Notes under the pieces: model-generated
Database searches by the model: none
Told to the model about the DNA's origin: nothing
The model's input: the letters and a program-made list of their open reading frames with translations, nothing else
Origin: a virus
Reading direction: 5' to 3' (one strand)
DNA length: 34,020 bases
Virus record (IMG/VR): IMGVR_UViG_3300024520_000288
Coordinates: 1 to 34,020 of that record
Shown: positions 3,857 through 31,749 of the stretch, piece by piece
How positions within the stretch are numbered: position 1 is the stretch's first letter
How the letters are laid out: each line of letters starts with the position of its first letter
Made by a program: the position numbers and the translations under genes

Positions 3857-3869
3857 AGGAGTTTAATAT

Positions 3870-4118
3870 ATGGAAAATTCAAGGTGTGTTTTTCATACAG
3901 AAGGTGATATGGGTGATGTGTTGTTTGTATTGCCAGCAGCTTCTAGGCAGTTAAGGGAAGGTGATATGGTAACGCATACTTCTCTGACAGATACTATTAG
4001 GTACAAGATTGAAACAGTTGATTATCATGTTGAAGAAGGGCGTAGACAGGGAATATTATCAACTAGAGATTATTGGAAAACGCCAGTTACGTATTTTGGA
4101 GTAAGTGTAGTGGTTTAA
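3870..4118 (+). CDS. Small virion-module protein of unknown function
   Basis: An 82-residue protein with a good SD (AAGGAG) before the ATG. It contains a central acidic stretch (HTEGDMGDVLFVLP) and ends in TYFGVSVVV. There is no membrane segment or metal motif. It lies 13 bases after the beta-helix gene and before a terminator-like hairpin, so it belongs to the late virion group. I do not recognise the family; a small head-completion or fibre accessory protein is possible. Confidence 0.55.
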   Translation: MENSRCVFHTEGDMGDVLFVLPAASRQLREGDMVTHTSLTDTIRYKIETVDYHVEEGRRQGILSTRDYWKTPVTYFGVSVVV

Positions 4119-4123
4119 TTAAC

Positions 4124-4168
4124 ATGGGACAGGCAATTAAGTTTGTCTGTCTCATACTTTTTATTCTT
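4124..4168 (+). terminator. Strong intrinsic terminator-like hairpin
   Basis: ATGGGACAGGCAA (4124-4136) pairs with the sequence ending CTGTCTCAT (4142-4155) over about 13 pairs, several of them G-U, with a five-base loop. The T-rich run ACTTTTTATTCTTT follows at once. It lies between two virion genes and directly before an SD, so it probably sets relative expression within the late operon. Confidence 0.65.
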
Positions 4169-4181
4169 TAAGGAGAAAATC

Positions 4182-5126
4182 GTGAAGAGTGTATTTGGTA
4201 AGCCGGACAGGCGAATTGATTCAAAGACTGGTGAGGAGAAGATTTGTAGTGAATATCCTGCATGGATGCAAGATAGTTCTATCAGGGAACTAGAGGCAGA
4301 TATGGATACTCGTGAGGGAGACATTAATGGTGGGTATGTTCCTCATGATGAAGTGTTTGGAGCGAAGCAGGCATTAAATGATATTAAAGAAAGATACGAT
4401 GACATTGTTCGTTCAAAGCCTCGATATAGTCAATCAGAAGAACAGATTATAACTGAGGAGCTTGATAAGGTAACGAATAAGGTAACAGATACTTTATATT
4501 CAAGATATGATCAGTTAAAGGGTAAGGGTTCTATTGCGAGGCCGCAGAGAGAAGCGGATTTGAATGACTTTCCTTGCATAGAAATCAATCCTGAAATTGC
4601 AAAGATGTTTAATCTTTGTGGTATGAGTGGTGGCAAGGTATCAAGGAATCAGGCTGATAAATTTAGAAAAATAGCATGTGCTTATTTTGGGCGTGATGAT
4701 GCAAGTAGAGAGGCGATAAGGCCAGAGAATAATACTAATCGTCGTCCTATGGTTGGTTATGTCAATGAGAGATTTGCGAAAAGATTTGAGGAAATACATG
4801 GAGAAAGAGAAATACCTAATTTTAGAAATAGTGAAACTGAAGCTAAGTCTCCGTCTAAAGACATACTTAAAGATAACGGTGTCAGTGTAAAAGAGAGGCT
4901 TGCTACAGCAAGGGAGAAGTTTAATCAGCCGGAAAATCAGGATAATGGCAAAGTGGTTGAGAAAGTAAAGCCAGTTGAGAAGGCAAAGCGTGTCAAGAGA
5001 ACGCCTGATATTTCTTGGCAGTGCGAGGAAGAGGGGTGTACCTTTAAAGGGATAACAAGGCAAAAAGGTGCGCATATGGCACGTCATGGAAGAGAGAAAA
5101 AATTAGCTTTAGCAGCAAAGGAATAA
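4182..5126 (+). CDS. Virion-module protein with C-terminal C2H2-like zinc finger
   Basis: I chose GTG 4182 because AAGGAG (4170-4175) sits just before it; the frame could extend further upstream but only through the terminator hairpin. The 314-residue product is mostly charged and helical (KPDRRID..., EQIITEELDKVTNKVTDTLY), with a low-complexity Lys/Glu/Val-rich linker at about 235-270. The C-terminus has Cys281, Cys286, His298 and His302 (C-X4-C-X11-H-X3-H), resembling a C2H2 zinc finger. Its role is unknown. Between capsid and adaptor genes, a scaffold or an injected DNA-binding protein would fit. Confidence 0.6.
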   Translation: MKSVFGKPDRRIDSKTGEEKICSEYPAWMQDSSIRELEADMDTREGDINGGYVPHDEVFGAKQALNDIKERYDDIVRSKPRYSQSEEQIITEELDKVTNKVTDTLYSRYDQLKGKGSIARPQREADLNDFPCIEINPEIAKMFNLCGMSGGKVSRNQADKFRKIACAYFGRDDASREAIRPENNTNRRPMVGYVNERFAKRFEEIHGEREIPNFRNSETEAKSPSKDILKDNGVSVKERLATAREKFNQPENQDNGKVVEKVKPVEKAKRVKRTPDISWQCEEEGCTFKGITRQKGAHMARHGREKKLALAAKE

Positions 5127-6059: not shown

Positions 6060-9000
6060 TGGCACAGAAAGATAATCCGCTAAAACCGTTTCAGCATGGT
6101 TTAACAGGCAGGTTGATAAAATCAGTTGATCCTGCAAAGTTGATATTTGCTTCGGAGGATGGCAGGTCTTTTACTTCGGACAATTTCACTGAGCTTAAAA
6201 ACATGAAGTATACTGATAATGGAGTTATCGGTGTTACAGGTGGCATGACTAAGATTAACACGACTGCATTATCTTCACATCCCAAGATCAGGAATGCATT
6301 TCAATTTAAAAAGGTACAGCCTGCGGAGAATCATTTATTGGTGCAAGCCTACAATTCTGGTGAAACGGAATCTAAGGTATTCCAGAATACTACGGCAATA
6401 CCATCGGCAGGTGATTTTTCTGCTACTGCTTTACATACAGACGATTCAAGTGCAACCAAGGGTAGGTTTAGTGATGCTCCTGATGAGCATGTAGTTTATT
6501 GTAATAGTCAGGAAACAATGTCATGGGGTGGTGATGAAACACGTGTGTCTAATTTTGTGGTATACGATCCTGATGGTTCTTTTAAGTATGATTATACTAC
6601 TAAGGTGCAAAACACCTTAACTGATTCAGACAATATTGCTACGCTGTTTCAGACACCGGCTGGAATTGATGCGAATACTCTTGTTTTGTTCCATTTTGAA
6701 GATACGGCTCCTTTTGAATCTTCTGATACAGGTAATACTCACAGTGGTGTTGCTGTAGGTGGTATGAATCGCAGTTCTGCGCAGGCAAAGTTCGGTACGT
6801 ATTCTGCTTTGTTCGATGGTACGAATGATAGGGTTACCGTAACAGATCATGCGGAGCTTGATCTCTCAGGGGGTACATGGACGATTGACATGTGGGTATA
6901 TGCGGACGACCTTGATACGGAAGTTGGATTGTATTCGCAAGGGACAACCGGCGCGGATACGGACTATATGACAATAAACGTATCGACTGCCGGAGTGGTG
7001 TCATTGTCGGTAGTGGCTGCGAGCGCAGAGGTGGTTGCTCTTGCAACTGCAAGTGGTGTCGTAACAGTGGATACATGGCATCACATCGCAGTGGTTTCTA
7101 CACCAGGAGCATCTGACACAGATTATCGTATATTTGTTGATGGTTCGCAGAAGGCATTTGTAAATGATGCACAGAAACCTGCTAATTATAATAGTACGGC
7201 AGTAATCGGGGCACAGATTACAGGTGATACTACTTCGTTATTCTTTACAGGGCATATAGATGAATTTAGGTTATCTGATTCTGCAAGGTGGACAAGTGAC
7301 TTTGCTGTAGAAACTGCTGCTTATGGAACTGATGCTGTTGTTCACATTCGTGTTGGTAATAATATGCCTCTTGAGGGAATAAAGTGGTATGTAGGCACCG
7401 CAAATACAACATCGGCAACTGCAAGGATATTGTATTGGAGTGGCTCTAGCTGGACAGCCGTTTCTAGCCTCTCTGACGGCACTGATTCAGGGGGAGTACC
7501 TTTGGCACAGACAGGCACAATGACGTTCGACAGCACGGCTTCTGTGGCTAAACAGAGCATTATCTCTGGCGACTTGGCATATTGGTACTTAGTGGAAATT
7601 CCGTTGGCTGATACAACAACAACGATAAGTCATGTAACATTACAAGAGCCTTTTCAGCCATTACAGGATATATGGAATGGAGAGCCTAGAGGGCTTGTTT
7701 CTGCAAAGTTATTTGAAGATAGTATAAATAAGGATTATACAACTAATATATTTAATGATGATTATAGCTATGATGATAGCACGAAGTTTGATGAATCTAC
7801 ATATATGATAATGGATTCGCTTGTTTCCTCTACGCAATACCTTCAATTGGGATTTCTTGAGAGGCAGCAAGGGTTACAGATAAAGATGATTCCTAATCAT
7901 GCGAATAGCACTGCCGGAACGGTATTGTCTCTTGATTATTGGAATGGATCGGCATGGACTTCTGTTGGCACTGTCCAAGATGGTACGATTGAGAATGATA
8001 TTAGTTTTGCAAAGTCAGGGATTATCACTTGGAATGCACTTGATGAGAATGTGGAGTTTACAAGAGAAATAAGTGGGGGGTTGCCTCTTTATTATTATAA
8101 GCTTTCATGGAGTAAGAATTTTGATGGGGATGTGCTTGCTTATTTTATGGCTGGTATACCGGTACAGAAGCCACTTAATAATTACAAGTTTTCTTTATTT
8201 GCTCAGAACAGATTGTGGCTGTTTTCAAATCAATCTGAGAACAAGAATGAGGCAATTGTTTCTGATTTAAATACTCTTAATGTTTTTAATGGCAAGGGTT
8301 CTGGCGATCCGTTTAAGTTTGGAGATAGGACGGAAGTGGTTGCGGCTACTGAATTATTTACAAGGTTGACTACCAGTTTGAGAAGTATTGTATTGGTGCT
8401 AAAAGAGAATTCTGCACATATTGTTACAGGTGATAATCCTGAAGATTGGAATGTTATTGATCTTAGTAATAATATGGGATGTAATGCTCCTTTGACGTTG
8501 GCTACTTCGACGTTGGGATTGGAATTTTCACCTTTGTCGAGGAAGCAGATTGCAATATGGCAGGGAAGTTCTGGCATATTCATGTTTGACAATGTGGCTA
8601 TACATGAAATATCCAGTGATATATCCAACTTTTTTGATCAGACACAATCTGAGGCTATCAAGCTTTCTCTTGCGGATGACAGTGTGGGTTGGATAGAAGT
8701 TGAGAATGGAGAGCATTTCTATCATTGGCACTTTGCTTCTGGTTCAGCAGCTACAGAGCTAAACAAGGAGTTGTGCTTCGACATTAAGAGGCAGAAATGG
8801 TTTGAGATCGACAGGGGTACTTCTAAGGCTTTGCAGGGTGGCCTCAGAGTGATTGATACTACAGGTAACATATATAACTATGGCTTTGAAGATAATGGCT
8901 ATTTACAGAGGCTTAACAACGGTACCGACTATGATGGCAATGATATAGACTATCATATGGAATTCGGGGATTTGTTGCCTGAGAACAATATAAATGTTTT

Positions 9001-9322
9001 GACCAGGTTAGATATGTTGAGGTTGATTACGGTGTCTAAGACAACGACAGCAAATACTATTAAGGTGGAACATTTTGGTGATACAGGCACAACGGCAACA
9101 TTAGACAATCAGACAGGTTCTAATTTTTATACGTTTAAGACAGCAAGGACGAATTATAGATTAGCAATGCCTTCACTTAGGGTAAATACACCTGCTCATG
9201 TATTTCATCGTCTTAAATTTACAATTAGCACTGATGACGAAAGTGGAACAGGATTTGAGCCGTTGTATGTAGGTGGCTTTTATAAGGTTGACAAGTTACA
9301 TCTTTTAAGTCTTACTGATTAA
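6059..9322 (+). CDS. Tail hub/stopper, P22 gp10-like beta-propeller with inserted LamG-like domain
   Basis: A 1087-residue protein. The N-terminus (to about 195) and the part after about 690 carry repeats such as FSLFAQNRLWLFSNQSENKN, VVAATELFTRLTTSLRS, LVLKENSAHIVTGDNPEDW and FSPLSRKQIAIWQGSSGIF, the pattern of gp10-type hub proteins that close the portal channel. Residues about 203-420 form a LamG/concanavalin-like jelly roll: LVLFHFEDT, SALFDGTNDRVTV, WTIDMWVYADD, TWHHIAVV, FTGHIDEFRLSDSARW. Such domains bind glycans. It is translationally coupled to the adaptor gene. The hub assignment is by pattern; the LamG-like domain is the safer part. Confidence 0.7.
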   Translation: MAQKDNPLKPFQHGLTGRLIKSVDPAKLIFASEDGRSFTSDNFTELKNMKYTDNGVIGVTGGMTKINTTALSSHPKIRNAFQFKKVQPAENHLLVQAYNSGETESKVFQNTTAIPSAGDFSATALHTDDSSATKGRFSDAPDEHVVYCNSQETMSWGGDETRVSNFVVYDPDGSFKYDYTTKVQNTLTDSDNIATLFQTPAGIDANTLVLFHFEDTAPFESSDTGNTHSGVAVGGMNRSSAQAKFGTYSALFDGTNDRVTVTDHAELDLSGGTWTIDMWVYADDLDTEVGLYSQGTTGADTDYMTINVSTAGVVSLSVVAASAEVVALATASGVVTVDTWHHIAVVSTPGASDTDYRIFVDGSQKAFVNDAQKPANYNSTAVIGAQITGDTTSLFFTGHIDEFRLSDSARWTSDFAVETAAYGTDAVVHIRVGNNMPLEGIKWYVGTANTTSATARILYWSGSSWTAVSSLSDGTDSGGVPLAQTGTMTFDSTASVAKQSIISGDLAYWYLVEIPLADTTTTISHVTLQEPFQPLQDIWNGEPRGLVSAKLFEDSINKDYTTNIFNDDYSYDDSTKFDESTYMIMDSLVSSTQYLQLGFLERQQGLQIKMIPNHANSTAGTVLSLDYWNGSAWTSVGTVQDGTIENDISFAKSGIITWNALDENVEFTREISGGLPLYYYKLSWSKNFDGDVLAYFMAGIPVQKPLNNYKFSLFAQNRLWLFSNQSENKNEAIVSDLNTLNVFNGKGSGDPFKFGDRTEVVAATELFTRLTTSLRSIVLVLKENSAHIVTGDNPEDWNVIDLSNNMGCNAPLTLATSTLGLEFSPLSRKQIAIWQGSSGIFMFDNVAIHEISSDISNFFDQTQSEAIKLSLADDSVGWIEVENGEHFYHWHFASGSAATELNKELCFDIKRQKWFEIDRGTSKALQGGLRVIDTTGNIYNYGFEDNGYLQRLNNGTDYDGNDIDYHMEFGDLLPENNINVLTRLDMLRLITVSKTTTANTIKVEHFGDTGTTATLDNQTGSNFYTFKTARTNYRLAMPSLRVNTPAHVFHRLKFTISTDDESGTGFEPLYVGGFYKVDKLHLLSLTD

Positions 9323-11173: not shown

Positions 11174-14100
11174 ATGTCAAGAATGTCTGAATTAAAAAAA
11201 TCTGATCCAAGGTTAGCAAATATCAAAGATGATGTTTTGGCAGGATTTGTATATGACAAGAATCCAAAATTTGCCAAGATAGATAGGCAGATATTTATTG
11301 ATGATGCAATTGAAGACAAGAGCTTTATTGGCAAGGTTAAATCTGTTTTTACAGATACAGAATTCGTTCCTAGTGTAGGACCTGTTCCAACTATTGTTAC
11401 AGAAGCGATACCAAAGATTCCTAGAACAATAGAGAATCTTCAAGCAAAGGTACTGAGAAAAGGATTAGGATTAGACATTCCCGAAAGACTTGAATCTGTT
11501 GAAGAAACAAGCCCTCTTGATTTCGTATCAACTCAACGTGAAATCCCAAAAGCAATAGAAGAAAGGTTCCCTGATATACCACTTGAAGAAGCAGTAAAGG
11601 GAAGGCAACCTGGTGCTGTGTTTGCGGGGCAGGCATTAAAAGAACCGTTTAAAGAAGTAGCGGATTTAATAGGATTTGCATTAAGGCCAGAACAATTATT
11701 GGTAGTTGGCCCTGCTATTAATGTGGCATTTAGAGCTTTGGGATTTGTTGGCAAAGAAGCGTTTAAAGGTGTTAGGGATATTGTGAGATTGATTAAGCGT
11801 TCTGGTGTCAAAGAAGGAGATGCAGTTGAATCTATTGTAGAAAAGGTTTCAGGTCAAGTTGCCAAAGAGACAAATATTCCAAAGGCTGAGATAGAAAAAG
11901 AAATCCTTACTGAATCAAATAAGGTGAAAATTGTTCCTATATTAGAAGGTGCAATAAAAAAGTTGCCAGAAGAAGAAAGGTTAAATAAAGTTCCTGTTGA
12001 TCAGCTTATAAAGTTTATGATGGCTAAGGTTCAGAATATTGCAAATACTCATCACACTGAATCGTTTGATGTGATAATGAGTAGAATAGAGAAAGCTAAC
12101 TCTCTTTTCTCTGAAAAGGTTAAATTTACCAATAAAGAAAAAGCTGCCTTTTTTAGGTATGATGATATTTTAGGAAGCAGTGAGATAGATAGGATATTAA
12201 GTCCTGCTGATGCAAAAAAGTTTAGGCGATGGACGAGTGAGCAATTAGGGGAGCCTAAGCTTATTAAAAACATACAAGAGGAGGGAGTACTTAAAGGCGA
12301 AGGTAAAGCTTTCCGTCCTCCTGAGACACAGCCTAAACCGTTTAAAAAGGAGATACGGCCTTTAGAAGAAGTTGCAGAGGAAATAGAAGCAAAAGCCAGA
12401 GGTGAAGCTGCTAAAGAAGGGCCGTTTGATAAGATATTTGAGAGAATTGGCAAGAAGTTAAGATCAGAAGCGAAAGGGCAAGAAATTCTTGATGGTTTAG
12501 CAAAAAAAGGAGTTTCCCCAAATACAGTAGCAAGTAATTTTTGGGATAATACATGGAAGTTGTTAAATAATAAACAAAAAAAGATAATAGAGGATCATGT
12601 TTTTGCTAATACTCAATTTAAAATTGGTGAAACTTTAGGGTTTGATAAAAATAACAGGCGTATAATAGCGAAAACACAACGAGACATATCTGACAATGTA
12701 ATAGAATTTAGTGATGATGTTGAAGAGCTAGAAGGAGTGCAACGAGGATTAATTGCATTAATGGAATTTGCAAACCAAAATATTGGTGTAAAGGGAGTAG
12801 TAAAAAAAGTAATTAGTCCAAAGGTGCAAATTATAAAACCAAATGAATCAGCAAAAATTGAAGGTAATAATATTACTGCAGTTATATCTCCATCAGCTAA
12901 GGAAAGTGGTAAGGGGTTTCAACTAACTCTTTTTGATAGAAACTTTAAACCTATGAGCGATTCTCAGTTTGCTACTTTTGATGAAGCTTTTTCGACTGCG
13001 AAAAAGGTAACTAAGGAACCGCTTGCTGAACAAGCTAAGCCTCGTCTTCCTTTTAAAACGCAAGGAGGTAAAACGGTAGGCAGAATTGCAGAGGAAACAC
13101 CTCAAGATGTAAGTAATGCAATCAATCCTGCTTTTTCACCTGAACAGCGTGTTGGAATAAAAATTGATCCTATAGTACAAGAAGGCGCAGTTCCAAAAAA
13201 GATAGTTAGCAAAGCAGATATAATTAAATTCATGTCTGAAAAGATGGACATACCTATACGTATTGGCAGATTTAGAACTAAGGCGTTAGGTATATTTAAG
13301 GCTAAGCCTGAAATCATAAGAACAAAATTAGCAGATGATATTCCTGTTGCTGCACATGAGCTAGGCCACTTTCTTGAAAAATCTTTATTTGGAACCACAA
13401 AGCTTGATGGGCATGGATTGTCAGGTAAAAGCTTTCGTCCGTTCAGTGATGAATTGAGTAAGTTAGCAACGCCAGCCAATGCAGCAAGTAGTGTTGAATC
13501 TGAAGGATTTGCTGAATTTGTAAGTTTATTTGTAGTTGATAAAGCAAAAGCGCAAAAAGCTGCACCTAAGTTTTACAAGTGGTTTGTAGATGACATATTG
13601 GAAAATCAGCATCCGCAAGTAAAAGAAGTGCTTAATCAGATTAGTGATGATTTCGGAAGATGGATGAGGCAATCTTCTGTTGCTAAGGTAATGGGGCAAA
13701 TAGCTTTTGGTGACAAAGGAAGTTTTAAATTACCTTCACCAAGTAAGGTTTATACAGCAGGAAAAGATAAATTTTATCCGATTCAAATGGCAGTTAAAGC
13801 AATTAATCCAGATGTTGCTATTAGTGAAAATCCTTATATGTTATCAAGATTGTATTCTGACTGGATAGGTGAGGCCGAGCAATTTTTAAAGTTTGGACAG
13901 ATAAATACTAAGCCTGGCAAGTTTAAGATAGGACAGAAAATAGGGCCTTCTTTTGAAGAGATACTTGCTCCAATAAGAACTGAACATAGGGAGTTTAGTT
14001 CATTTTTAGTAGCCAAACGTGCAGTAGAGCTTTCTGGACGTGGAAAGATGACAGGCATTTCGCTTGGAGATGCACAGCAAGCATTAAAAGAATTGTCTAC

Positions 14101-16606
14101 TCCTGCATTCCAAAAAGCAGCTAAAGAATTAGATATATTTCAAGATAGATTTGCACAAAGAATGTTGGATGCAGGGTTTTTTACAAATGCAGATTATTTG
14201 AAATTTAAGAAAATGAACAAAGATTATGTTCCTTTTTTCAGGATAGCAGAAACAGAAACAAATGGAACAGGTGGTGCTATATCAAATGTGTTTAATCCGA
14301 TAAAGAAGCTATCTAGAGAAGGTAGTACTCGTCAGATAGTTGATCCTCTTGAATCTATTGTAAAAAATGTATATACGTTTACTGCTTTAGCAAAAAAACA
14401 GGAGATAAAAAAAGCTATTGCAGGATTGGCAAAGTTCGATAAAAGTGGCAAATATATAGAACGTGTCCCTCGTGAGTTCAAGTCTGTTGCAATATCTAAT
14501 GATGAATTATATAAAATATTCAGAGACTTTTCTAATTGGACAGAACGAACTGAGTTTAAAGAATTTAAAAAAGAATTTAGTAAAAAGACAGGAATAAAAG
14601 ATGGTGAAGTAAGCAAGCCTATTGAGAAGTTAGAATCTATAATAATAGATGCACTTAAAAAACGTGGCATGACTGAAGGTGAGGGAAAGGCTTTTGTCTC
14701 TCGACTGAAAAATGCAAAAGGAGCAAAAGAAATTGATTCTGCTGTTGAGACAGTAATAGAAAAGCAGACTATTCTTCATACTGTTAAACAAATGGATTTG
14801 GATTTACCTGAATGGGTAACTATATTTAGGCCAAAAGAATCATTGCCACAAGGGCCTTTTATTGAGGTCTTTAATAAAGGAAAAAAGACTTTATTCCAGC
14901 TTGATCCTGAATTACATAAAGCTTTTACTGGATTAGACATTGAGTCAGTTAATTTTATTGTAAGAGCAGCTTCTATTCCTGCGAGATTGTTAAGAGCAGG
15001 GGCAACGTTAACACCTGAATTTTCTTTAAAGAACATTCTTCGTGATCCGTTTAGTGCATTTGTATTTAGTAAGGATGGTTTTATCCCTGGCATAGATACA
15101 GCAAAAGGTTTCTTTCATGCTTTTAGGCAAGACAAGTTATATCAGGCATGGAGGGTTGGCGGTGGTGGGCATTCGATGATGGTGTCTTTAGACAGAGATG
15201 TATTACAGAAAAATTTAAAGCAGTTGCTCAATGATGTAACTGTGAGTGGTAAAGTAAAAAATATAGTAAATCACCCAATGGATACATTGAGAATAATGTC
15301 TGAATTATTTGAATCTTCAAATAGATTAGGCAATTTTTCTAAAACATATAAGAACTTTAATAAGAATATTCAAAAGGCTATTAAGTTTTCTGAGACAGCG
15401 CCTAAAACTTTAAATAAAAAGAAGCCATTTGTTGAATTTAAAATATCTGGCAAGATGCGTAAAGTTGAAAACACAAAAGAGTCATTGAGGCGATTTGCAA
15501 TACAATTAGAAAAGGAGAGATTGCCAGGGGCAGCGTTTGAGGCAAGGGAAGTTACATTGGATTTTAGTAAAATAGGTTCTAAGATGAAAGCCATGAATCA
15601 GCTTACTGCTTTTTTTAATGCAAGGTTAGAAGGCTATGATAAGTTTATTCGAGTGTTTAAGGAGCGTCCTGTAACTGCAATGGCAAAAGCCATGTCTGCG
15701 GTCACACTTCCAACTATGTATTTGTGGTGGGCAAATAAAGACGATCCTCGCTATCAGGAATTACCTCGATGGGAAAAAGCCTTGTTCTGGCATGTATTGA
15801 CAGACAAGCATATTTATAGAATACCAAAGCCGTTTGAATTAGGGTTTTTGTTTGGAACTATTCCGCAAGCATTTCTTGAATGGATGGACAAGAAAGACCC
15901 TGAAGGTGTAAAGCGTTTATTTGAAGATATAAATAGAGATGCAATTAATACAGTGCTTCCGACATCAGCGAAACTTGCATTTGAACAATTATCAGGAGAC
16001 TCTTTATTTACTGGTGCGCCTTTAGTTGGTAGGGCAGAGGAGAATTTAGCGCCTCCATATCAATCCAGACCTTGGACAAGTGAGACAGCTAAATTAGTAG
16101 GTAAGGTGCTTAATTATTCACCTGCTAAAATAGATGCGCTTGTTTTTGGTTTTACTGGTGGCTTAGGTAGGCTTGCTATAAAAGAAGGTGCGGATAGGGC
16201 AGTATTGCAATTTATAGATGAACCGATAGACCCTTCACCTACGTTTTCTGATATACCGATATTAAAGACTTTTACAAGTAGATGGCCTCGTGCTGATGCG
16301 GACAGTATTCAGTTGTTTTATAAGAAATATGGAAAGGCAAAAGAAGCGCAAAATACATTTATATCATTGGTAAAGGCAGGAGAGGCTAAACTTGCAAAAA
16401 CATATTCAGAGGAAAATCAACCATTAATTCAACAAGCAGTAGGAATGGAATTAACAAGAAATATGTTAGCAGATGGGCATAAAATTATAAGAATAATAAA
16501 CGAAAACAAAAATATGACACCTGCACAGAAGAGAAAGAAAATAGATGAAACTTATTTGTTTATGACAAAAGCAGCAAGACGTGGGTTAGCAACGAATATC
16601 AAATAA
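11174..16606 (+). CDS. Giant internal virion protein with zinc-metallopeptidase motif
   Basis: This 1810-residue protein is the largest in the window. Residues 728-732 are HELGH within PVAAHELGHFLEK, the zinc-binding helix of metallopeptidases; a later SEGFAEF at about 776-782 could give the third ligand. Near about 1515-1580 the run ELPRWEKALFWHVLTD and IPKPFELGFLFGTIPQAF matches what I recall of a domain common in phage polyvalent proteins. Such proteins are carried in the virion and injected, where they may form part of the DNA channel. The start has no clear SD; coupling to the gene one base upstream probably drives initiation, and ATG 11183 is an alternative. Confidence 0.7.
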   Translation: MSRMSELKKSDPRLANIKDDVLAGFVYDKNPKFAKIDRQIFIDDAIEDKSFIGKVKSVFTDTEFVPSVGPVPTIVTEAIPKIPRTIENLQAKVLRKGLGLDIPERLESVEETSPLDFVSTQREIPKAIEERFPDIPLEEAVKGRQPGAVFAGQALKEPFKEVADLIGFALRPEQLLVVGPAINVAFRALGFVGKEAFKGVRDIVRLIKRSGVKEGDAVESIVEKVSGQVAKETNIPKAEIEKEILTESNKVKIVPILEGAIKKLPEEERLNKVPVDQLIKFMMAKVQNIANTHHTESFDVIMSRIEKANSLFSEKVKFTNKEKAAFFRYDDILGSSEIDRILSPADAKKFRRWTSEQLGEPKLIKNIQEEGVLKGEGKAFRPPETQPKPFKKEIRPLEEVAEEIEAKARGEAAKEGPFDKIFERIGKKLRSEAKGQEILDGLAKKGVSPNTVASNFWDNTWKLLNNKQKKIIEDHVFANTQFKIGETLGFDKNNRRIIAKTQRDISDNVIEFSDDVEELEGVQRGLIALMEFANQNIGVKGVVKKVISPKVQIIKPNESAKIEGNNITAVISPSAKESGKGFQLTLFDRNFKPMSDSQFATFDEAFSTAKKVTKEPLAEQAKPRLPFKTQGGKTVGRIAEETPQDVSNAINPAFSPEQRVGIKIDPIVQEGAVPKKIVSKADIIKFMSEKMDIPIRIGRFRTKALGIFKAKPEIIRTKLADDIPVAAHELGHFLEKSLFGTTKLDGHGLSGKSFRPFSDELSKLATPANAASSVESEGFAEFVSLFVVDKAKAQKAAPKFYKWFVDDILENQHPQVKEVLNQISDDFGRWMRQSSVAKVMGQIAFGDKGSFKLPSPSKVYTAGKDKFYPIQMAVKAINPDVAISENPYMLSRLYSDWIGEAEQFLKFGQINTKPGKFKIGQKIGPSFEEILAPIRTEHREFSSFLVAKRAVELSGRGKMTGISLGDAQQALKELSTPAFQKAAKELDIFQDRFAQRMLDAGFFTNADYLKFKKMNKDYVPFFRIAETETNGTGGAISNVFNPIKKLSREGSTRQIVDPLESIVKNVYTFTALAKKQEIKKAIAGLAKFDKSGKYIERVPREFKSVAISNDELYKIFRDFSNWTERTEFKEFKKEFSKKTGIKDGEVSKPIEKLESIIIDALKKRGMTEGEGKAFVSRLKNAKGAKEIDSAVETVIEKQTILHTVKQMDLDLPEWVTIFRPKESLPQGPFIEVFNKGKKTLFQLDPELHKAFTGLDIESVNFIVRAASIPARLLRAGATLTPEFSLKNILRDPFSAFVFSKDGFIPGIDTAKGFFHAFRQDKLYQAWRVGGGGHSMMVSLDRDVLQKNLKQLLNDVTVSGKVKNIVNHPMDTLRIMSELFESSNRLGNFSKTYKNFNKNIQKAIKFSETAPKTLNKKKPFVEFKISGKMRKVENTKESLRRFAIQLEKERLPGAAFEAREVTLDFSKIGSKMKAMNQLTAFFNARLEGYDKFIRVFKERPVTAMAKAMSAVTLPTMYLWWANKDDPRYQELPRWEKALFWHVLTDKHIYRIPKPFELGFLFGTIPQAFLEWMDKKDPEGVKRLFEDINRDAINTVLPTSAKLAFEQLSGDSLFTGAPLVGRAEENLAPPYQSRPWTSETAKLVGKVLNYSPAKIDALVFGFTGGLGRLAIKEGADRAVLQFIDEPIDPSPTFSDIPILKTFTSRWPRADADSIQLFYKKYGKAKEAQNTFISLVKAGEAKLAKTYSEENQPLIQQAVGMELTRNMLADGHKIIRIINENKNMTPAQKRKKIDETYLFMTKAARRGLATNIK

Positions 16607-16626: not shown

Positions 16627-16869
16627 ACCGTTTGCCCGACGGTTGCAATAACAGAGCCGCAGTCAATGGGGAGTGAGACTGCCGATAGCTACTTATCGCA
16701 AAAGTAGATTAGATATAGTTAAGACCTAATGTTGGCATAGCATGTTGCTTTGTCTGGGGAGGTGAAGCTATATCTAACAAGTGAAGTTGGATTAGATATA
16801 GTCGATGTGCTAAGAGCCACAAAAAAGCTTGGTAAAACGGAGGCTATATCTAATCCCTTCTTTTTATTT
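16627..16869 (+). ncRNA. Putative structured RNA with pseudoknot and terminator
   Basis: Four elements follow the last virion gene. Hairpin ACCGT/ACGGT is at 16627-16631/16639-16643. Hairpin GCAGTC/GACTGC is at 16659-16664/16677-16682. An H-type pseudoknot has stem 1 CGATA/TATCG (16683-16687/16694-16698) and stem 2 CTACT/AGTAG (16689-16693/16703-16707). Two long stems share the same arms: TTAGATATAG (16709-16718) with CTATATCTAA (16768-16777), and GGATTAGATATAG (16789-16801) with its exact complement (16844-16856). The last stem is followed by CTTCTTTTTATTT, an intrinsic terminator. No promoter of its own is clear, so it may be the processed 3' end of the late transcript. Class unknown. Confidence 0.6.
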
Positions 16870-16891: not shown

Positions 16892-16920
16892 TTGACAAAC
16901 TATAGTTTTCATGCTATAGT
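16892..16920 (+). promoter_or_regulatory. Consensus sigma-70 promoter with dyad operator
   Basis: TTGACA (16892-16897), a 17-base spacer, then TATAGT (16915-16920). ACTATAG (16899-16905) and CTATAGT (16914-16920) form a perfect dyad with eight bases between, covering the spacer and -10 box, the usual place for a repressor site. It sits just after the terminator of the upstream RNA element and would transcribe the periodic arrays and the gene at 17345. Confidence 0.8.
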
Positions 16921-16926
16921 TCTTTT

Positions 16927-17076
16927 ACAATCATTGAATCGAGTTGTGATCTCGAATGATCAAACCGTCTGATTGTCACAGTTGTAGAATCAATTCATGG
17001 TAGCAAAGGAGCTGGGTATAAATAAATTGATAGTGTTGTGTTATTCTGTAGGAGAAATATGTCAAAAGGTAGTAAG
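16927..17076 (+). other. Folded 5' leader before the first periodic array
   Basis: From the expected transcription start the RNA has a stem TCGAG/CTCGA that continues, past a small bulge, with TCAT/ATGA (about 16932-16960). A weaker hairpin TGATT/AATCA follows near 16970-16995. An SD-like AAAGGAG at about 17005 has no start codon after it. With the arrays, the leader of the gene at 17345 is more than 400 bases long, unusual for a phage this compact. Confidence 0.4.
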
Positions 17077-17097
17077 ATCATATACTATCAAATTTAA
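17059..17097 (+). CDS. Possible 12-codon leader peptide
   Basis: ATG at 17059 has AGGAGA at a good distance and reads MSKGSKIIYYQI before TAA. Its last codons run into the first periodic array, which begins at 17077. It may be a real leader peptide that brings ribosomes to the array, or chance. Nothing else supports it. Confidence 0.25.
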   Translation: MSKGSKIIYYQI

Positions 17098-17217
17098 TCT
17101 GACACAATAGAATCTTATTTTTAATATTATATATGACATTACCACATACCATAGCATGCGATCAGATATAATTTTTGATTAGACGTTACCATATATCATT
17201 ACATCAGATTTAATTTT
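17077..17217 (+). repeat. Periodic array 1: A-Y every 5 bases (27 units)
   Basis: An A followed by T or C recurs every five bases: 17077-17117 (9 units), 17126-17171 (10 units) and 17178-17213 (8 units), with two shifts of register. The three bases between are not conserved, so this is not a simple tandem duplication. It ends in the AATTTTAACTTTTT tail that other arrays share. Confidence 0.9.
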
Positions 17218-17338
17218 AACTTTTTATTAATGGAGGAGAATATATCATATATTACCATATGTCATCCTATAACATGTTATTCTACACAATCTAATGTTAT
17301 TTAATGTGATTTGATTTTAACTTTTTATTAATGGAGGA
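17208..17338 (+). repeat. 30-base direct repeat closing arrays 1 and 2, includes SD
   Basis: Bases 17208-17237 and 17309-17338 are identical except for one A/G, 101 bases apart. Each copy reads from the last array unit through TTTTAACTTTTTATTAATGG into GGAGGA. The second copy supplies the SD of the gene at 17345. The first has the same SD but no nearby start, so it may be a duplicate or a decoy ribosome site. Confidence 0.85.
17244..17317 (+). repeat. Periodic array 2: 15 units in one register
   Basis: A stands at every fifth base from 17244 to 17314 without a break. It is followed by T in 13 units and C in two (17254, 17284). The other three positions vary freely. The array ends directly in the T-rich tail and SD of the gene at 17345. 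Confidence 0.9.
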
Positions 17339-17344
17339 AGAGTA

Positions 17345-17935
17345 ATGGAAATAACTAAAACTGGAAAATTCATTACAGATTTTTACGGTTCTGCTCCGGC
17401 ACTTGGGGCAAGTGGTATTTTGAGCAAATGGGTAGAGGACAAACAAAGTGCATGGTTGTTGTCATGGGCTGATAAAGTTAAGAAGCGAGGGCAAGACGCA
17501 ATAGGGGCATTAGAAGAAATTCTCTCTGTATTTCACAGAGACAGCGATGGCAACCCTATACTTGGGAATTGGATGCTTAGAAGGTGCCTTGTGACGACAG
17601 GAGAAGCTATCTTTAATGCGCTTAAAGACAAGACACATCCTAAGAAAGCAATTATACCAATGGCTGTTAAGTTGGTAGAGCCGTTTCAAATCCATATTAA
17701 TAATGGTAAGTTAGTAAAAGAGCCTAATGGAGTAAAAACTTATACCGTGACAACTAAAGGTAGATCGTTTTTTAAAGCTTATGAATATATCGAGGCAGGA
17801 ACTGCATTTGATGCAACTATATATTTTGATGAAACTTTGATGTCAGAAGAGAATATCAATCAGTTGTTGGATAAGTGTGGAAGTGTGGGAGTGGGTGCGT
17901 TTAGAGAAAGATTTGGCAAGTTTGTGTGGGTCTAA
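17345..17935 (+). CDS. Array-embedded protein with RAMP/Cas7-like Gly loop
   Basis: A 196-residue protein with SD GGAGGA (17333-17338). The N-terminal half is helical with Trp-rich segments (SILSK-type start, AWLLSWADKVKKRG, GNWMLRRCL). The C-terminal half is beta-rich and ends with a helix LMSEENINQLLDKCG, then VGVGAFRERFGKFVWV. That GxGxxRxxxG loop resembles the glycine-rich loop of RAMP/Cas7-type RNA-binding proteins, and I recall similar C-termini in uncharacterised phage proteins. The gene lies between periodic arrays, two before and two after, so it may bind them or their transcript. The fold and the link are inference; no partner Cas genes are present. Confidence 0.5.
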   Translation: MEITKTGKFITDFYGSAPALGASGILSKWVEDKQSAWLLSWADKVKKRGQDAIGALEEILSVFHRDSDGNPILGNWMLRRCLVTTGEAIFNALKDKTHPKKAIIPMAVKLVEPFQIHINNGKLVKEPNGVKTYTVTTKGRSFFKAYEYIEAGTAFDATIYFDETLMSEENINQLLDKCGSVGVGAFRERFGKFVWV

Positions 17936-17944
17936 TCTTGTAAT

Positions 17945-18305
17945 ATTTAATCTGATTCGATCTTATATCATTTGATCTAATGTCACCTAAGATGAGATTT
18001 AATTCTATACGATGTTATAGACTCAAATTGTATATGATGCGATCTAATTCGATGCGATGCAATTTAATTATATATCACTTGATTAAATTAATCAGATTTA
18101 ACACCACCTTATGTGACACAATTTCATTTGATTTAATATTATTAAATATTATTACGTTATCAAATTAAATAAGATGCCATCAGATTCTATACTATTCCAT
18201 CCGATGCTATTTAATCTTATATCTTATCAAATCAGACTTGATCTCATCGGATCAAATATGATCTTATTTTCAGATGTGATAACATACGATGGTATTTTAT
18301 TTTAC
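17945..18305 (+). repeat. Periodic array 3: about 72 units
   Basis: The longest array. A-T or A-C recurs every five bases in six register blocks: 17945-17985 (9), 17992-18087 (19 of 20; exception at 18022), 18091-18151 (13), 18154-18219 (14), 18221-18266 (10) and 18274-18304 (7). The shifts between blocks change spacing to 2, 3, 4, 7 or 8 bases. It begins ten bases after the stop of the 17345 gene. There is no convincing gene inside. Confidence 0.9.
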
Positions 18306-18430
18306 TTTTTATATTACAGACATATTGACTCAGATGGGATGGCATAGCATAGAACAAAATGAAATTGAATGCTATATCACAGGATAGAATACAATTCGAT
18401 ACAATCGTATGGTACTTTAATTTTACTTTT
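18291..18430 (+). repeat. 20-base direct repeat closing arrays 3 and 4
   Basis: Bases 18291-18310 and 18411-18430 match at 18 of 20 positions (GGTAYTTTAWTTTTACTTTT), 120 bases apart. The core AATTTTA(A)CTTTT is the same as in the tails of arrays 1 and 2, but without the SD. Confidence 0.85.
18334..18418 (+). repeat. Periodic array 4: 17 units in one register
   Basis: A stands at every fifth base from 18334 to 18414, followed by T in 14 units and C in three (18354, 18379, 18414). It is richer in G than the other arrays, so the period is not a by-product of AT content. The sequence 18431-18490 after its tail shows no further period. Confidence 0.9.
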
Positions 18431-18503
18431 CTAGCCTCATGTTTTATTAGAGAAAATCAGGGGGCAAAGTTATTTTGTTAACTATTTTTGTAAGGAGAGA
18501 ATC

Positions 18504-18767
18504 ATGCAATTCAATGTAGATAGACAGAAAATTAATGACGATTTAGTGGAAATTTGCGATGCGGGATTGGAGTTGTTACGCAAGAAAAAACTAGAGCAAA
18601 CTGATTTCGGGAAGCTCAAGACAATGAAGGCAATGTCAAGTTTTATGAATGGAAGGATTGCTTTGGCTCAACAAGAAACAGCAAGGGAGAGGACAAGTCT
18701 TATACGAGCTAGGATGGAACAGCTTGGGTATGATGTGAACAACAAGGCGAAAGAAATAGAGGGATAG
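18504..18767 (+). CDS. Small helical protein of unknown function
   Basis: An 87-residue protein with a strong SD (AAGGAGAG). It is nearly all helical and charged (LVEICDAGLELLRKKKLEQTDFGKLKTMKAM, then MNGRIALAQQETARER), with no membrane or metal motif. It is the first gene after array 4 and so may be on the same transcript. It could be a small regulator or a nucleic-acid-binding protein; I do not recognise it. Confidence 0.6.
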   Translation: MQFNVDRQKINDDLVEICDAGLELLRKKKLEQTDFGKLKTMKAMSSFMNGRIALAQQETARERTSLIRARMEQLGYDVNNKAKEIEG

Positions 18768-23991: not shown

Positions 23992-24093
23992 AATAAATAA
24001 ACAACGTTTACCGGAGCGTTTAAGAATGTTCGCTTTTTACGAGGCGGCTTAAAGGCTAAACAGGTTCCGGTTAAACTTGTTTGGCCTTTTTTT
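23992..24093 (+). ncRNA. Short RNA or attenuator leader
   Basis: The stretch from the promoter to seven T (24087-24093) is about 100 bases. AGGCTAAACAGG (24053-24064) pairs with CTTGTTTGGCCT (24076-24087), 12 pairs with two G-U, forming an intrinsic terminator. Its loop (24065-24075) is complementary to GTTTACCGGA at 24006-24015, so a loop-to-leader pseudoknot can form. It ends 11 bases before the Mom-like ATG and so is either a separate small RNA or an attenuator controlling that gene. Confidence 0.65.
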
Positions 24094-24104
24094 ATTTAAA
24101 GACT

Positions 24105-25322
24105 ATGATAATTTGCAAAAACCTAGAATGCACAAAAGAGATTATACCAATTCGACAGGATCATATTTATTGCAGCAAGCAGTGTAGAGATAAAGGGTTT
24201 AGAATTTTAAATCCTAATTATATTAAAGATGCAAGAGCTAATGGGAAATATAAGTTTGATAATAATACTTATAAAATAAGGCGTACTAAGTATATGTCCA
24301 ACCCTGATAATATGATCAAACTAAATGCAAGAAGAGCGGCATGGTTTAAATTTAAGGAAGTTCAATCATGTAGTATTTCCAGATGTACTGCTAAAGGAGA
24401 AAGACATCATCCTGATTATAATCAGCCTAGTGATATCATTTGGCTGTGTAAGAAACACCATGTCATGGCTCATTCTAAACAATGCACCATTGAACAATGC
24501 AATAATAAGCATTTAGCTTTAGGCTTTTGTAGTATGCATTATAAAAGATATAGAAAAGGAGTATTAAATAATTATTCCTTACCTGTTGGTAGTATATTTA
24601 ATAATTATTACATAAGTATGAATAAAGACAAAGGATATATATATCATAAACAGAATATGCTTTTTGGTAGTAAGGAAATTATTGGCTTTGGGGATAATGA
24701 TTGGTACGTTAAACAAATACCAAAAAAAACAAGCAAGCAAATAATAATAAAAAACCATTATTCAAAGAAAGTTTGTAACGATGCAACTACTCATATCCAT
24801 TTAGGTGTATTTATTGGTGGCAATCTTTTAGGGGTTTTACAATTTGGGTACGCCATGAATCCTTTAAGTGCAAGCAAAATTGTTAGAGGCACTAAAATAA
24901 ATGAATATAAAGAACTTAATAGAATGTGGTTATGTGATAGTGTTCCACGAAATGGCGAAAGCAAATCAATCAGTTATGCTATTAAATACATAAAAGGTAA
25001 ATATCCAAAAGTAAAATGGATACAAACCTTTGCTGATGAGCGATGTAACGGATTAGGAATTATGTATCAAGCTTGTAGTTTTGGCTATTATGGTTCCCAT
25101 AATAGCAAGTTTTGGTACTTTAAAGATGAAATATATCACAATAGCCACATTACAAATAACAACAGAAATAAAAAGGCACAATTAGAGAATCAAGGGTTTT
25201 TTGAAACAGCTAAAAGCTTCGAATTTCGCCAATTTAGATATATTAAATTTTTAGATAATCGGTATAAAAAAAAATGCACTTTGAAAGAGTTGCCATATTT
25301 AAAGCATTATCAATCAGATTAG
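24105..25322 (+). CDS. Zinc-finger/HNH/Mom-like (GNAT) DNA-modification fusion
   Basis: A 405-residue protein from ATG 24105 (a longer TTG start falls in the terminator). There are three N-terminal zinc parts: Cys4, Cys9, Cys23, Cys27; an HNH-like region at about 87-125 (CSISRCTAKGERHHPDY, IIWLCKKHHVMAH); and CNNKHLALGFCSMHYKRYRK. Residues about 195-350 match Mom-type GNAT proteins: NHYSKKV, HLGVFIGGNLLGVLQFG, INEYKELNRMWLCDSVPRN, then KWIQTFADE. Mom of phage Mu modifies adenines to block host restriction. The start has no SD and follows an attenuator-like leader, so expression is probably tightly held. Confidence 0.7.
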   Translation: MIICKNLECTKEIIPIRQDHIYCSKQCRDKGFRILNPNYIKDARANGKYKFDNNTYKIRRTKYMSNPDNMIKLNARRAAWFKFKEVQSCSISRCTAKGERHHPDYNQPSDIIWLCKKHHVMAHSKQCTIEQCNNKHLALGFCSMHYKRYRKGVLNNYSLPVGSIFNNYYISMNKDKGYIYHKQNMLFGSKEIIGFGDNDWYVKQIPKKTSKQIIIKNHYSKKVCNDATTHIHLGVFIGGNLLGVLQFGYAMNPLSASKIVRGTKINEYKELNRMWLCDSVPRNGESKSISYAIKYIKGKYPKVKWIQTFADERCNGLGIMYQACSFGYYGSHNSKFWYFKDEIYHNSHITNNNRNKKAQLENQGFFETAKSFEFRQFRYIKFLDNRYKKKCTLKELPYLKHYQSD

Positions 25323-26893: not shown

Positions 26894-27080
26894 AATATTA
26901 AATATTACTGGTTCTGACAGTGACGATGCTAAATATGAATTGTTTATCAATGGCGAGCATATTGCTTATTTTGAGCATAAGAGATCAGATGGGTTGGCTA
27001 GGTGTTTGATAGAGGCTGCGGATGCGGTGCTGGATGCTGATTATGAATTGTTTAGGATAGATTATGAAAGTACATTATAG
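26886..27080 (+). CDS. Small acidic protein of unknown function
   Basis: I chose GTG 26886 because the frame upstream only shadows the zinc-ribbon gene; GAGGAA lies about nine bases before. The 64-residue product begins MIKILNITGSDSDDAKYELF and ends in an Asp/Ala/Leu-rich helix (CLIEAADAVLDADYELF). It overlaps the methyltransferase start by 17 bases. No family is known. Confidence 0.5.
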   Translation: MIKILNITGSDSDDAKYELFINGEHIAYFEHKRSDGLARCLIEAADAVLDADYELFRIDYESTL

Positions 27081-27486
27081 CAGTAAGACACATGAATGGG
27101 AAACGCCAGGAGATCTATTTGATAAGCTGAACAAGAAGTTTAACTTTACTTTGGATCCTTGCTGTACTCTTAAAAATAAAAAGTGTGAAAAATATTATAC
27201 TGTTGAAGATGATGGATTGTCTTGTGATTGGAGTGGAGAGAGAGTGTTTATGAATCCTCCTTATGGCAGGGAAATAGGCAAGTGGGTTGAAAAGGCTTAT
27301 ATGTCAAATGCGTTAGTGATTGCGTTGTTGCCTGCCAGGACTGATACTAAATGGTTCCATGATTATATTTATTATGGAAAGTCTACTATTAAGTTTCTAA
27401 AGGGTAGGTTGAAATTCGGTAATTGTAAAAACAGCGCTCCGTTTCCATCAATGATAGTAGGATTCTGGAGGTTAGATATAGATTGA
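27064..27486 (+). CDS. Phage DNA N6-adenine methyltransferase (Dam type)
   Basis: A 140-residue protein. WETPGDLFDKLNKKFNFTLD followed by Asp-Pro, then NPPYG at residues 64-68, the adenine-methyltransferase catalytic motif, and a later TKWFHDYIYYGKSTIKFLKG and RLKFG fit the short phage Dam family (PF05869 type). It transfers a methyl group from S-adenosylmethionine to adenine in phage DNA, which protects against host restriction. Length is at the low end but all core motifs are present. It overlaps the next gene by four bases. Confidence 0.8.
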   Translation: MKVHYSSKTHEWETPGDLFDKLNKKFNFTLDPCCTLKNKKCEKYYTVEDDGLSCDWSGERVFMNPPYGREIGKWVEKAYMSNALVIALLPARTDTKWFHDYIYYGKSTIKFLKGRLKFGNCKNSAPFPSMIVGFWRLDID

Positions 27487-30810: not shown

Positions 30811-31749
30811 TATAAGATTAATTAAATTAGTGTGTCTAAAAAGATTAGAATTTACTTGTTGTCGTAAGTGATGTTACGAATATAATTAACTGCTTTTTGT
30901 GCTTTGCCTGATGCTGTAATGAGTAGCTTCTTGTCACCTTTTAGTTTGCTTAACCATGATTTGATATAGGCCGTACTGTTATCAATGGTTTTATGCATGA
31001 TGCCGGATTCGCCATTTAAGAAACTAGCTCCTATTTCAGCAATCAGTTCTTCTTTAGAATAACAATTAGGCCCGAATGAAATTTCTCCAGCAACTCCGTC
31101 ACGATTTAGTCTATCTTTGTGTCCAGTGGAATGAGTCAACTCATGGAACAAAGTAGAATAGTATTCAGGAGTTTTAGCAAAAGATTCTTTTTTCGGCATG
31201 TTGATAATATCCTGCCCAGGGCTGTAATATGCTCGCTGTTCTTCGTGAAATACTTTTGGCATGCCTAAAGGTAGTTCCTCAAGTATCTTTTCGGCTGAGG
31301 CTATCTGAGTGAATTCTGTGGTGTTTGTCTGTGGTTTAGGGTAGTCAATACCTTCTGTCTGGCATACGTTAAAGACATTGGAATACTTTAACATAGGTAT
31401 TTTGTCAGCCTTGCCAGTTTCTTCATTTACTTTACCGTCTAGGAACTTCCAGAAGATAATCGGAGTAGCCTTAGAACCTTTTGCTATCTTACCTTTAAGT
31501 TTTTGGCATTGCTTGAATGTCAACCAGTATTCAGAATTGAATGATTGCAGGTTAGTCATTATAGCGTTAACCCCTTGATACGTCTTGCCTGATATTAAGT
31601 TCTTACTCATGCCTGCTGTGTTCCAGGGTTTACGCCAGGGAACAACACCCTTTTCTAATTCTGTGATGATCCTATCTGTGATGATGTCATATGCCTTACT
31701 CATAATTAATGCTCCTTTCTCAAGACACACTAATTTAATTAATCTTATA
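30811..31749. repeat. Perfect 27-base inverted repeat around the ArdC-like gene
   Basis: Bases 30811-30837 (starting TATAAGATTAATT, ending GTGTGTCT) are the exact reverse complement of 31723-31749. One arm lies 14 bases after the stop and the other 19 bases before the start of the enclosed gene, so the mRNA ends can pair into a panhandle. No transposase is present and no target-site duplication is evident. Confidence 0.85.
30852..31703 (-). CDS. ArdC-like antirestriction protein (ssDNA-binding plus zincin domain)
   Basis: I chose ATG at 31703 (283 residues) since AAGGAG sits upstream; an extension to 31766 lacks an SD and runs through the inverted repeat. The N-terminus (AYDIITDRIITELEKGVVPW, KPWN, KTYQGVNAIM, YWLTFKQ) is the ArdC/DUF1738 ssDNA-binding domain. 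The zinc-peptidase motif is HELTH at 187-191, with a later Glu in ELIAEIGASFL as likely third ligand. Plasmid ArdC protects incoming DNA from type I restriction. Length is typical. It stands alone between inverted repeats. Confidence 0.85.
   Translation of the reverse strand: MSKAYDIITDRIITELEKGVVPWRKPWNTAGMSKNLISGKTYQGVNAIMTNLQSFNSEYWLTFKQCQKLKGKIAKGSKATPIIFWKFLDGKVNEETGKADKIPMLKYSNVFNVCQTEGIDYPKPQTNTTEFTQIASAEKILEELPLGMPKVFHEEQRAYYSPGQDIINMPKKESFAKTPEYYSTLFHELTHSTGHKDRLNRDGVAGEISFGPNCYSKEELIAEIGASFLNGESGIMHKTIDNSTAYIKSWLSKLKGDKKLLITASGKAQKAVNYIRNITYDNK

Follow-up and report, generated by a model that had tools for sequence, protein, structure and literature searches.

The window, as we call the whole 34,020-base IMG/VR virus record analysed here, encodes capsid, SU10-like adaptor and LPD38 proteins, and in this phage setting it carries a gene for a 196-residue protein, which starts with an ATG seven bases downstream of a GGAGG Shine-Dalgarno sequence (Table 1). 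The initial annotation had placed the start of this gene at 17244, a position that falls within the upstream array and leader. The flanks of the gene are non-coding: 739 nt separate it from the end of the previous gene at 16606, and a further 568 nt follow its stop codon. The previous gene (11174-16606) encodes an 1810-residue protein of virion type; it has an LPD38 domain and relatives among the proteins of Pelagibacter and other podoviruses.

As had been claimed, arrays bracket the gene (17073-17319 upstream and 17931-18414 downstream); the two are non-coding and have a strict 5-nt period and the consensus NNN-A-Y, with about 140 units in all. They were called with an HMM that expects A and T at two of five phases, and which found exactly two periodic regions across the whole 34-kb window. 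A occupies position 4 in 133 of the 140 complete units; at position 5, T predominates (119 units) over C (17), A (3) and G (1). The backbone is highly fixed (~95% for A, ~85% for T), while the variable positions are close to maximal diversity. The longest exact run of AT at every fifth base was 13; in 1000 shuffles of 17001-18450 that preserved dinucleotides it was 7 at most, and no other dinucleotide at this spacing gave a run of more than 5 anywhere in the 34 kb. The arrays had lag-5 identities of 0.49 and 0.52; for the intervening gene, from which the periodicity is absent, the value was 0.26. Tandem Repeats Finder did not report the arrays, as conservation is lacking at three of the five bases (60% of the unit). 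Slips delimit blocks of 5-20 pentads, not always within the published range of 9-16 (block B has 14), and the downstream array holds ~70% of the units.

Four blocks are closed by tails. Those at 17209 and 17310 have the tail word TTTRATTTTAACTTTTTATTAATGGAGGA, and the two downstream of the gene (18293 and 18416) have it shortened to TTTWATTTTACTTTTYTA. It had also been observed that the upstream array, through its tail, leads into the Shine-Dalgarno sequence of the gene; this holds, with GGAGG lying inside tail 2. Neither the tails nor the terminal hairpin (18434-18464) exceeded shuffled sequences in stability, and no structured tail was found. The candidate promoter upstream of the first array is the best in the region, yet the count of promoter-like sites there is not above that of shuffles. 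Rfam gave nothing at gathering, its one match (E 0.22, far below the gathering score) being upstream of the arrays. Between the gene for the 1810-residue protein and the candidate promoter sit two tandem stable hairpins (16709-16777 and 16792-16853), which have the stems TTAGATATAG...CTATATCTAA in common, belong to no Rfam family and, when folded with a little extra sequence, gave -24.9 and -27.2 kcal/mol.

Elsewhere in the window, counter-restriction genes at 24081-25322, 27064-27486 and 30852-31766 (-) encode a Mom-family protein (E 7e-63), a Dam methylase (E 6e-25) and an ArdC-type antirestriction protein (E 5e-31). At 2766-2859, two tandem copies of 47 nt (AGGGTAAGCTGTGGTTTAATTCCACAGGACAG...) may be a duplicated hairpin or terminator.

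Table 1. Features in and around the pentad arrays of the window (vrRNA, guide RNA; L108, contig of the closest relative).
Feature	Position	Strand	Basis
Candidate promoter TTGACA-17-TATAGT, TG before -10, upstream of first array	16892..16920	+	11/12 consensus matches
Array A, ~27 NNNAY pentads broken by two slips; candidate for one or more vrRNA guide regions	17073..17208	+	HMM, periodicity
Tail 1, TTTAATTTTAACTTTTTATTAATGGAGGA	17209..17240	+	repeat families D3/D6
Array B, 14 NNNAY pentads without interruption; candidate vrRNA immediately before vipr	17241..17309	+	HMM
Tail 2, TTTGATTTTAACTTTTTATTAATGGAGGA, holds Shine-Dalgarno GGAGG (17333-17337)	17310..17338	+	repeat search
Vipr homologue, predicted RAMP/Cas7-like, 196 aa	17345..17935	+	phrog_4652, PDB 36pp, fold matches
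G-loop GVGAFRERFGKF, codons 182-193	17888..17923	+	Vipr alignment, L108 homologue
Array C, ~72 NNNAY pentads in slip-delimited blocks of 5-20	17931..18292	+	HMM
Tail 3, TTTTATTTTACTTTTTATATTA	18293..18314	+	repeat family D9
Array D, ~19-20 NNNAY pentads	18315..18415	+	HMM
Tail 4 and conserved element TGTTTTATTAGAGAAAATCA, possible hairpin 18434-18464	18416..18465	+	element common to L108
87-aa ORF after arrays; only weak vap candidate	18504..18767	+	syntenic in L108, 59% identical

Homology and predicted fold of the 196-residue protein

The window protein matched PHROG 4652 (E 7.2e-9), whose listed function is unknown. Vipr of Escherichia phage SUSP1 (KT454805.2, 28474-29061) matched the same PHROG (E 1.4e-96), which places the two proteins in one family. 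A 2026 preprint describes VIPR as a guide code that is noncontiguous and may be ancestral to CRISPR (PMC13142463). The best PDB sequence match of the window protein was likewise "SUSP1 Vipr protein" (36pp, chain D), a match that is weak for the window protein alone (E 0.019) and rises to E 6.3e-18 with a profile of the protein and its relatives. A profile built exclusively from GGY/GCA-type Viprs recovered the window protein among the ORFs of the fetched loci at E 2e-6; with a leave-one-out profile of all known Vipr members the value was E 1.1e-7. In tblastn searches the protein found Felixounavirus and Suspvirus proteins at 22% identity. Pfam, NCBIfam and PADLOC gave nothing useful for it (PADLOC-DB 2023 is without a Vipr model), protein-pattern scans of IMG/VR found no close relatives, an alignment of nine Viprs proved too diverse to serve as a query, and an IMG/VR scan with the upstream capsid-side protein as bait found no relatives either. 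The protein forms a very long branch (best identity 23%) that the tree does not place; therefore, we do not claim a single origin for A-Y backbones.

A Gly/Arg loop like that of RAMP-type RNA binders had been noted at the C-terminus, and it is real: the protein ends in GVGAFRERFGKF followed by VWV, and G182, R187 and G191 are invariant across an alignment of nine Viprs. An AlphaFold2 model of middling confidence (pLDDT 60.5, pTM 0.54), built from five sequences, predicted a beta-alpha-beta-beta-alpha-beta core, in line with the RRM core expected of a Vipr protein. All 50 of the 50 PDB fold matches listed for this model were Cas7-family chains (Csm, Cmr, Cas7-11 and type VII Cas7; best E 1.6e-4), and the best BFVD (viral) match was named a Cas-system-associated RAMP superfamily protein (E 5e-7). 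The guess of a RAMP/Cas7-like fold is thus upheld by these matches and by membership of the SUSP1 Vipr family; structure prediction, which had been put forward as a check for a fold unrelated to nucleic-acid binders, returned Cas7-family matches and left that reading standing. As part of the wider VIPR reading given below, and at the same high confidence, sequence and model together indicate that the window protein is a divergent Vipr, a minimal RAMP relative of Cas7.

The closest relative, from one scan of genome contigs, lies on a 5.7-kb contig binned in a Maribacter MAG (L108). This contig holds the last 69 residues of a homologue that is 67% identical to the window protein and has the G-loop GLGAFRARFGKF. 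The C-terminal part of vipr is followed there by A-Y arrays and then by an 82-residue homologue (59% identity) of the 87-residue ORF of the window. The arrays keep the A-Y backbone, as DAT, while their variable bases are fully different from those of the window. Such turnover of variable bases on a retained backbone suits guide arrays, not fixed operators. The 87-residue ORF itself had no PHROG, NCBIfam or significant Pfam match; no convincing vap accessory gene was found, and no neighbour was recognisable as SUSP1 vap1 (phrog_5926).

Pentad arrays beside Vipr-like genes in other phages

We scanned IMG/VR for arrays alone, requiring twelve A-T(Y) steps at 5-nt spacing and using no protein. The 98 stretches found were mostly simple repeats; 11 were diverse (normalised entropy at least 0.8) and 87 less so. 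Four ORFs in these loci matched the GGY/GCA-only Vipr profile (two in L008, one each in L034 and L013), all of them in the 11 most diverse loci, and three of the four (in L008, L034 and L013) directly adjoin the AT array. Overall, a Vipr-like or winged-helix/RAMP-like gene lay beside the array in 6 of the 11 diverse loci compared to 0 of the 87 less diverse ones, a count that includes two unproven proteins (L056 and L023) and two loci from one contig. A stricter array pattern returned only loci found before. Among seven phage Vipr loci fetched by protein similarity, six carry pentad arrays, with the backbones GGY, GGC or GCA. Protein and arrays thus occur together in independent genomes, in support of the proposed partnership of the two. 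The SUSP1 locus, read here in the same way, has GGYNN (YNNGG) arrays upstream and downstream of the gene, as published (PMC13142463).

Several of these loci have features of their own. Two Vipr homologues are encoded in L008 (IMGVR_UViG_3300005323_000039; 1257-1906 and 8328-9300), and the backbones next to them differ: the first adjoins GAT/NN, and the second is followed by what, by eye, are interrupted GGTNN runs. Two orthogonal VIPR systems possibly coexist there. In L013 (IMGVR_UViG_3300021168_000016; 8287-8589), RAT/NN arrays directly after a Vipr homologue are split by repeated GAAGTATTTTTATACTGGAATTAT, likely a vrRNA tail. phiHSIC and Vibrio phage 1.266.O (L102 and L103) have Vipr homologues by GCA/NN arrays, a backbone unnamed in the main text of the VIPR preprint.

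In L056 (IMGVR_UViG_3300031999_000111; 3531-4630) and L023 (IMGVR_UViG_3300009320_000035; 7142-8327), fully NNNAY arrays flank, or directly precede and follow, a protein of 266-271 residues that has a winged helix at its N-terminus and the motif GxGANxxVxGG in its C-terminal part. These loci may represent a winged-helix/RAMP fusion type of VIPR. We did not accept the proteins as Vipr relatives: profile comparison was not significant, the model was of low confidence, only the winged helix was recognised, and the RAMP likeness of the C-terminal part is loose. A further diverse AT-every-5 array (L019, 3281-3397), on a 157-kb viral contig, has no Vipr-like ORF nearby; it could be protein-less or have a trans-acting partner.

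Proposed guide function of the arrays and its alternatives

In the type example of VIPR, that of SUSP1, the RAMP homologue Vipr works with guide RNAs of 9-16 YNNGG pentads and a constant 3' tail; DNA is recognised by a 1-nt skip rule, targets lie in satellites and prophages, and silencing of competitors by the RNA-guided DNA-binding Vipr complex has been shown (PMC13142463). From sequence, the structural model and analogy with SUSP1, we consider it highly likely that the window locus is a divergent VIPR system, in which Vipr and NNNAY guide RNAs (vrRNAs) would target DNA. According to the wording of the preprint's text, each of the seven VIPR types has GGY/NN "or a related consensus (fig. S17)" (PMC13142463). 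NAY/NN departs from the characterised GGY/NN and may already stand among those published variants; tandem pentads of a constant triplet plus NN are present in the window under the "related consensus" wording, not under strict GGY.

The arrays would most likely be transcribed rightwards, in the direction of the gene, with a strong promoter-like site upstream of the first array (16892-16920), and the transcript would be cut or terminated into vrRNAs, each of ~9-20 pentads followed by a constant tail. Array C is probably several concatenated or overlapping vrRNAs. By analogy, Vipr subunits would polymerise along the vrRNA, probably one per pentad, so that the proposal in the initial annotation of one protomer per five bases is plausible. 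Each subunit would hold a constant [N]AY triplet, equivalent to the GGY of characterised systems, and present the NN dinucleotides to a gapped DNA target. The complex would probably repress transcription of competing phages or satellites, and the system, as in SUSP1, is probably a programmable DNA-silencing weapon against rival phages. When guides B, D and C4 (eight units each, 1-nt skip) were searched for natural targets in IMG/VR collections, which may leave out records near the window, they matched 6, 24 and 11 stretches, with flanking units at chance level. No targets were found in the window or in ~1 Mb of fetched loci (skips 0-3, and other choices of variable bases).

The arrays themselves bear on how they would be read. 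N3, the base just before A, is enriched in G compared to N1N2 (40/140 vs 39/280, p 5e-4) and poor in C (p 0.03 in the window, p 0.003 in L108). Taken with the corresponding triplets of L034 and L008 (GAT), L013 (RAT) and L108 (DAT), this suggests that N3 stands where GGY has its first G and is less strictly specified, leaving the two bases after Y as the reading positions. A different register, which we think unlikely, would shrink the backbone to A-Y and have all three variable bases read, as a repeated contiguous guide N1N2N3. Each protein subunit would then read a codon-sized triplet and the protein would remove the guide interruptions; such a code, if true, would make an RNA guide intermediate between VIPR and CRISPR-type guides. 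The N3 bias, the absence of any match between the contiguous N1N2N3 decode and isolate phages, and the rate of in-frame stop codons in that decode (6 vs 6.8 expected, a chance rate on which a codon reading was rejected) do not support three-base reading. As for the strand, T is replaced by C at position 5 in 17 units of the window arrays, compared to A by G at position 4 in 2 (two-sided binomial ~7e-4, by hand), and N-A-Y lies on the sense strand of the gene in L034, L008 and L056, as read with a model that weighted C above other substitutes, which the window HMM did not. Since the AT step is self-complementary, a duplex DNA element should tolerate A->G as often as T->C, and the asymmetry, with the sense-strand N-A-Y elsewhere, points to RNA. 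We therefore regard as very improbable that the arrays are a DNA element (an origin, a partition site or a filament nucleation site with an AT step per half turn) bound by the protein as duplex. Such an element would account for AT-rich, intergenic DNA with an identical lattice on both strands; it fits neither the strand bias nor the orientation of arrays along the sense strand in other phages, nor the GGY or GCA lattices, rather than AT steps, of homologous loci, nor a predicted fold of RNA-binding class.

The initial annotation suggested self-repression in the manner of T4 gp32, and a protein of this kind, gp32- or TRAP-like, would coat the NNNAY leader and block its own ribosome-binding site, with the arrays as binding sites and not guides. 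The position of the Shine-Dalgarno sequence in the array B tail agrees with this, and there is a precedent in TRAP, which recognises RNA at a 5-nt period, (G/U)AG plus 2 nt. However, most units are downstream of the gene and would be superfluous for leader repression, nothing seen requires self-regulation, and the complete change of variable bases on a kept backbone, relative to a 67%-identical homologue, fits guides better than operators. The homologue that has been characterised binds DNA with the help of an RNA guide (PMC13142463), and the closest characterised relatives use their arrays as DNA-recognition guides. The gp32-like mode thus finds no support, and as an account of the arrays autoregulation seems to us a poor prospect. 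Because the array B tail contains the Shine-Dalgarno sequence, self-repression through it is possible as a side effect, and would be compatible with VIPR as secondary feedback. A gp32-like OB-fold single-strand binder was also considered and rejected, the model and PDB fold search giving RAMP matches instead. It is scarcely credible that the arrays are decayed microsatellite or low-complexity DNA placed around the gene by chance: most stretches in the pattern scan are simple repeats, but here near-maximal diversity at the variable positions accompanies a nearly fixed backbone, and it is diverse arrays, not simple ones, that adjoin Vipr-like or winged-helix/RAMP-like genes (6/11 vs 0/87, two of the six resting on the unproven L056 and L023 proteins and two coming from one contig).

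Comparison with known systems

With the Cas7-family RAMPs (Csm3, Csm5, Cmr, type VII Cas7), the window protein has in common a predicted fold, a Gly-rich loop of the RNA-binding kind and an expected polymerisation on RNA. It differs in its minimal size, in a spacing of 5 rather than 6 nt and in the lack of other cas genes and CRISPR repeats: the window contained no CRISPR-type repeat array, and no class 1 cas gene was present among the proteins scanned against PHROGs or Pfam. TRAP sites resemble the arrays in 5-nt-period RNA recognition with unconserved spacers; the TRAP protein is unrelated, and its sites consist of 11 repeats and have no guide function.

The VIPR of SUSP1 (type II; PMC13142463) is much closer. 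In both, a ~20-kDa RAMP carries the G-loop motif and belongs to one PHROG family, pentad arrays flank its gene, the constant triplet has a pyrimidine in third place and is joined by variable positions, and there are 3' tails, constant in SUSP1 and recurrent in the window. Its backbone is GGY, compared to NAY with a relaxed first base in the window, and it has four vrRNAs of ~100 nt, compared to ~140 pentads. The tail sequences of the two are unrelated, and no stable fold was found in those of the window. If the window locus is indeed a VIPR system, a function is attached to PHROG 4652. The array scan also shows that systems of this type can be located without recourse to the protein.

Period-5 arrays by Vipr also occur in phiHSIC and Vibrio phage 1.266.O (GCA/NN) and in LittleE and Trine (GGC/NN), where a phrog_4652-type protein was tested for phiHSIC and LittleE only. 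These backbones keep G first and, unlike the window, have no A-Y. L034 and L008 (GAT/NN) and L013 (RAT/NN) do have A-Y in the backbone and Vipr beside the array, with G or R as the first backbone base where the window has N; their Viprs group in a supported clade that shows no tie to the window protein. An A-Y code in a distant Vipr lineage, with GAT, RAT and DAY as intermediates, suggests that evolution can alter the constant triplet and still retain the pyrimidine and the 5-nt spacing, and the natural series GGY, GCA, GAT, RAT and NAY could be used to map the protein residues that read the backbone.
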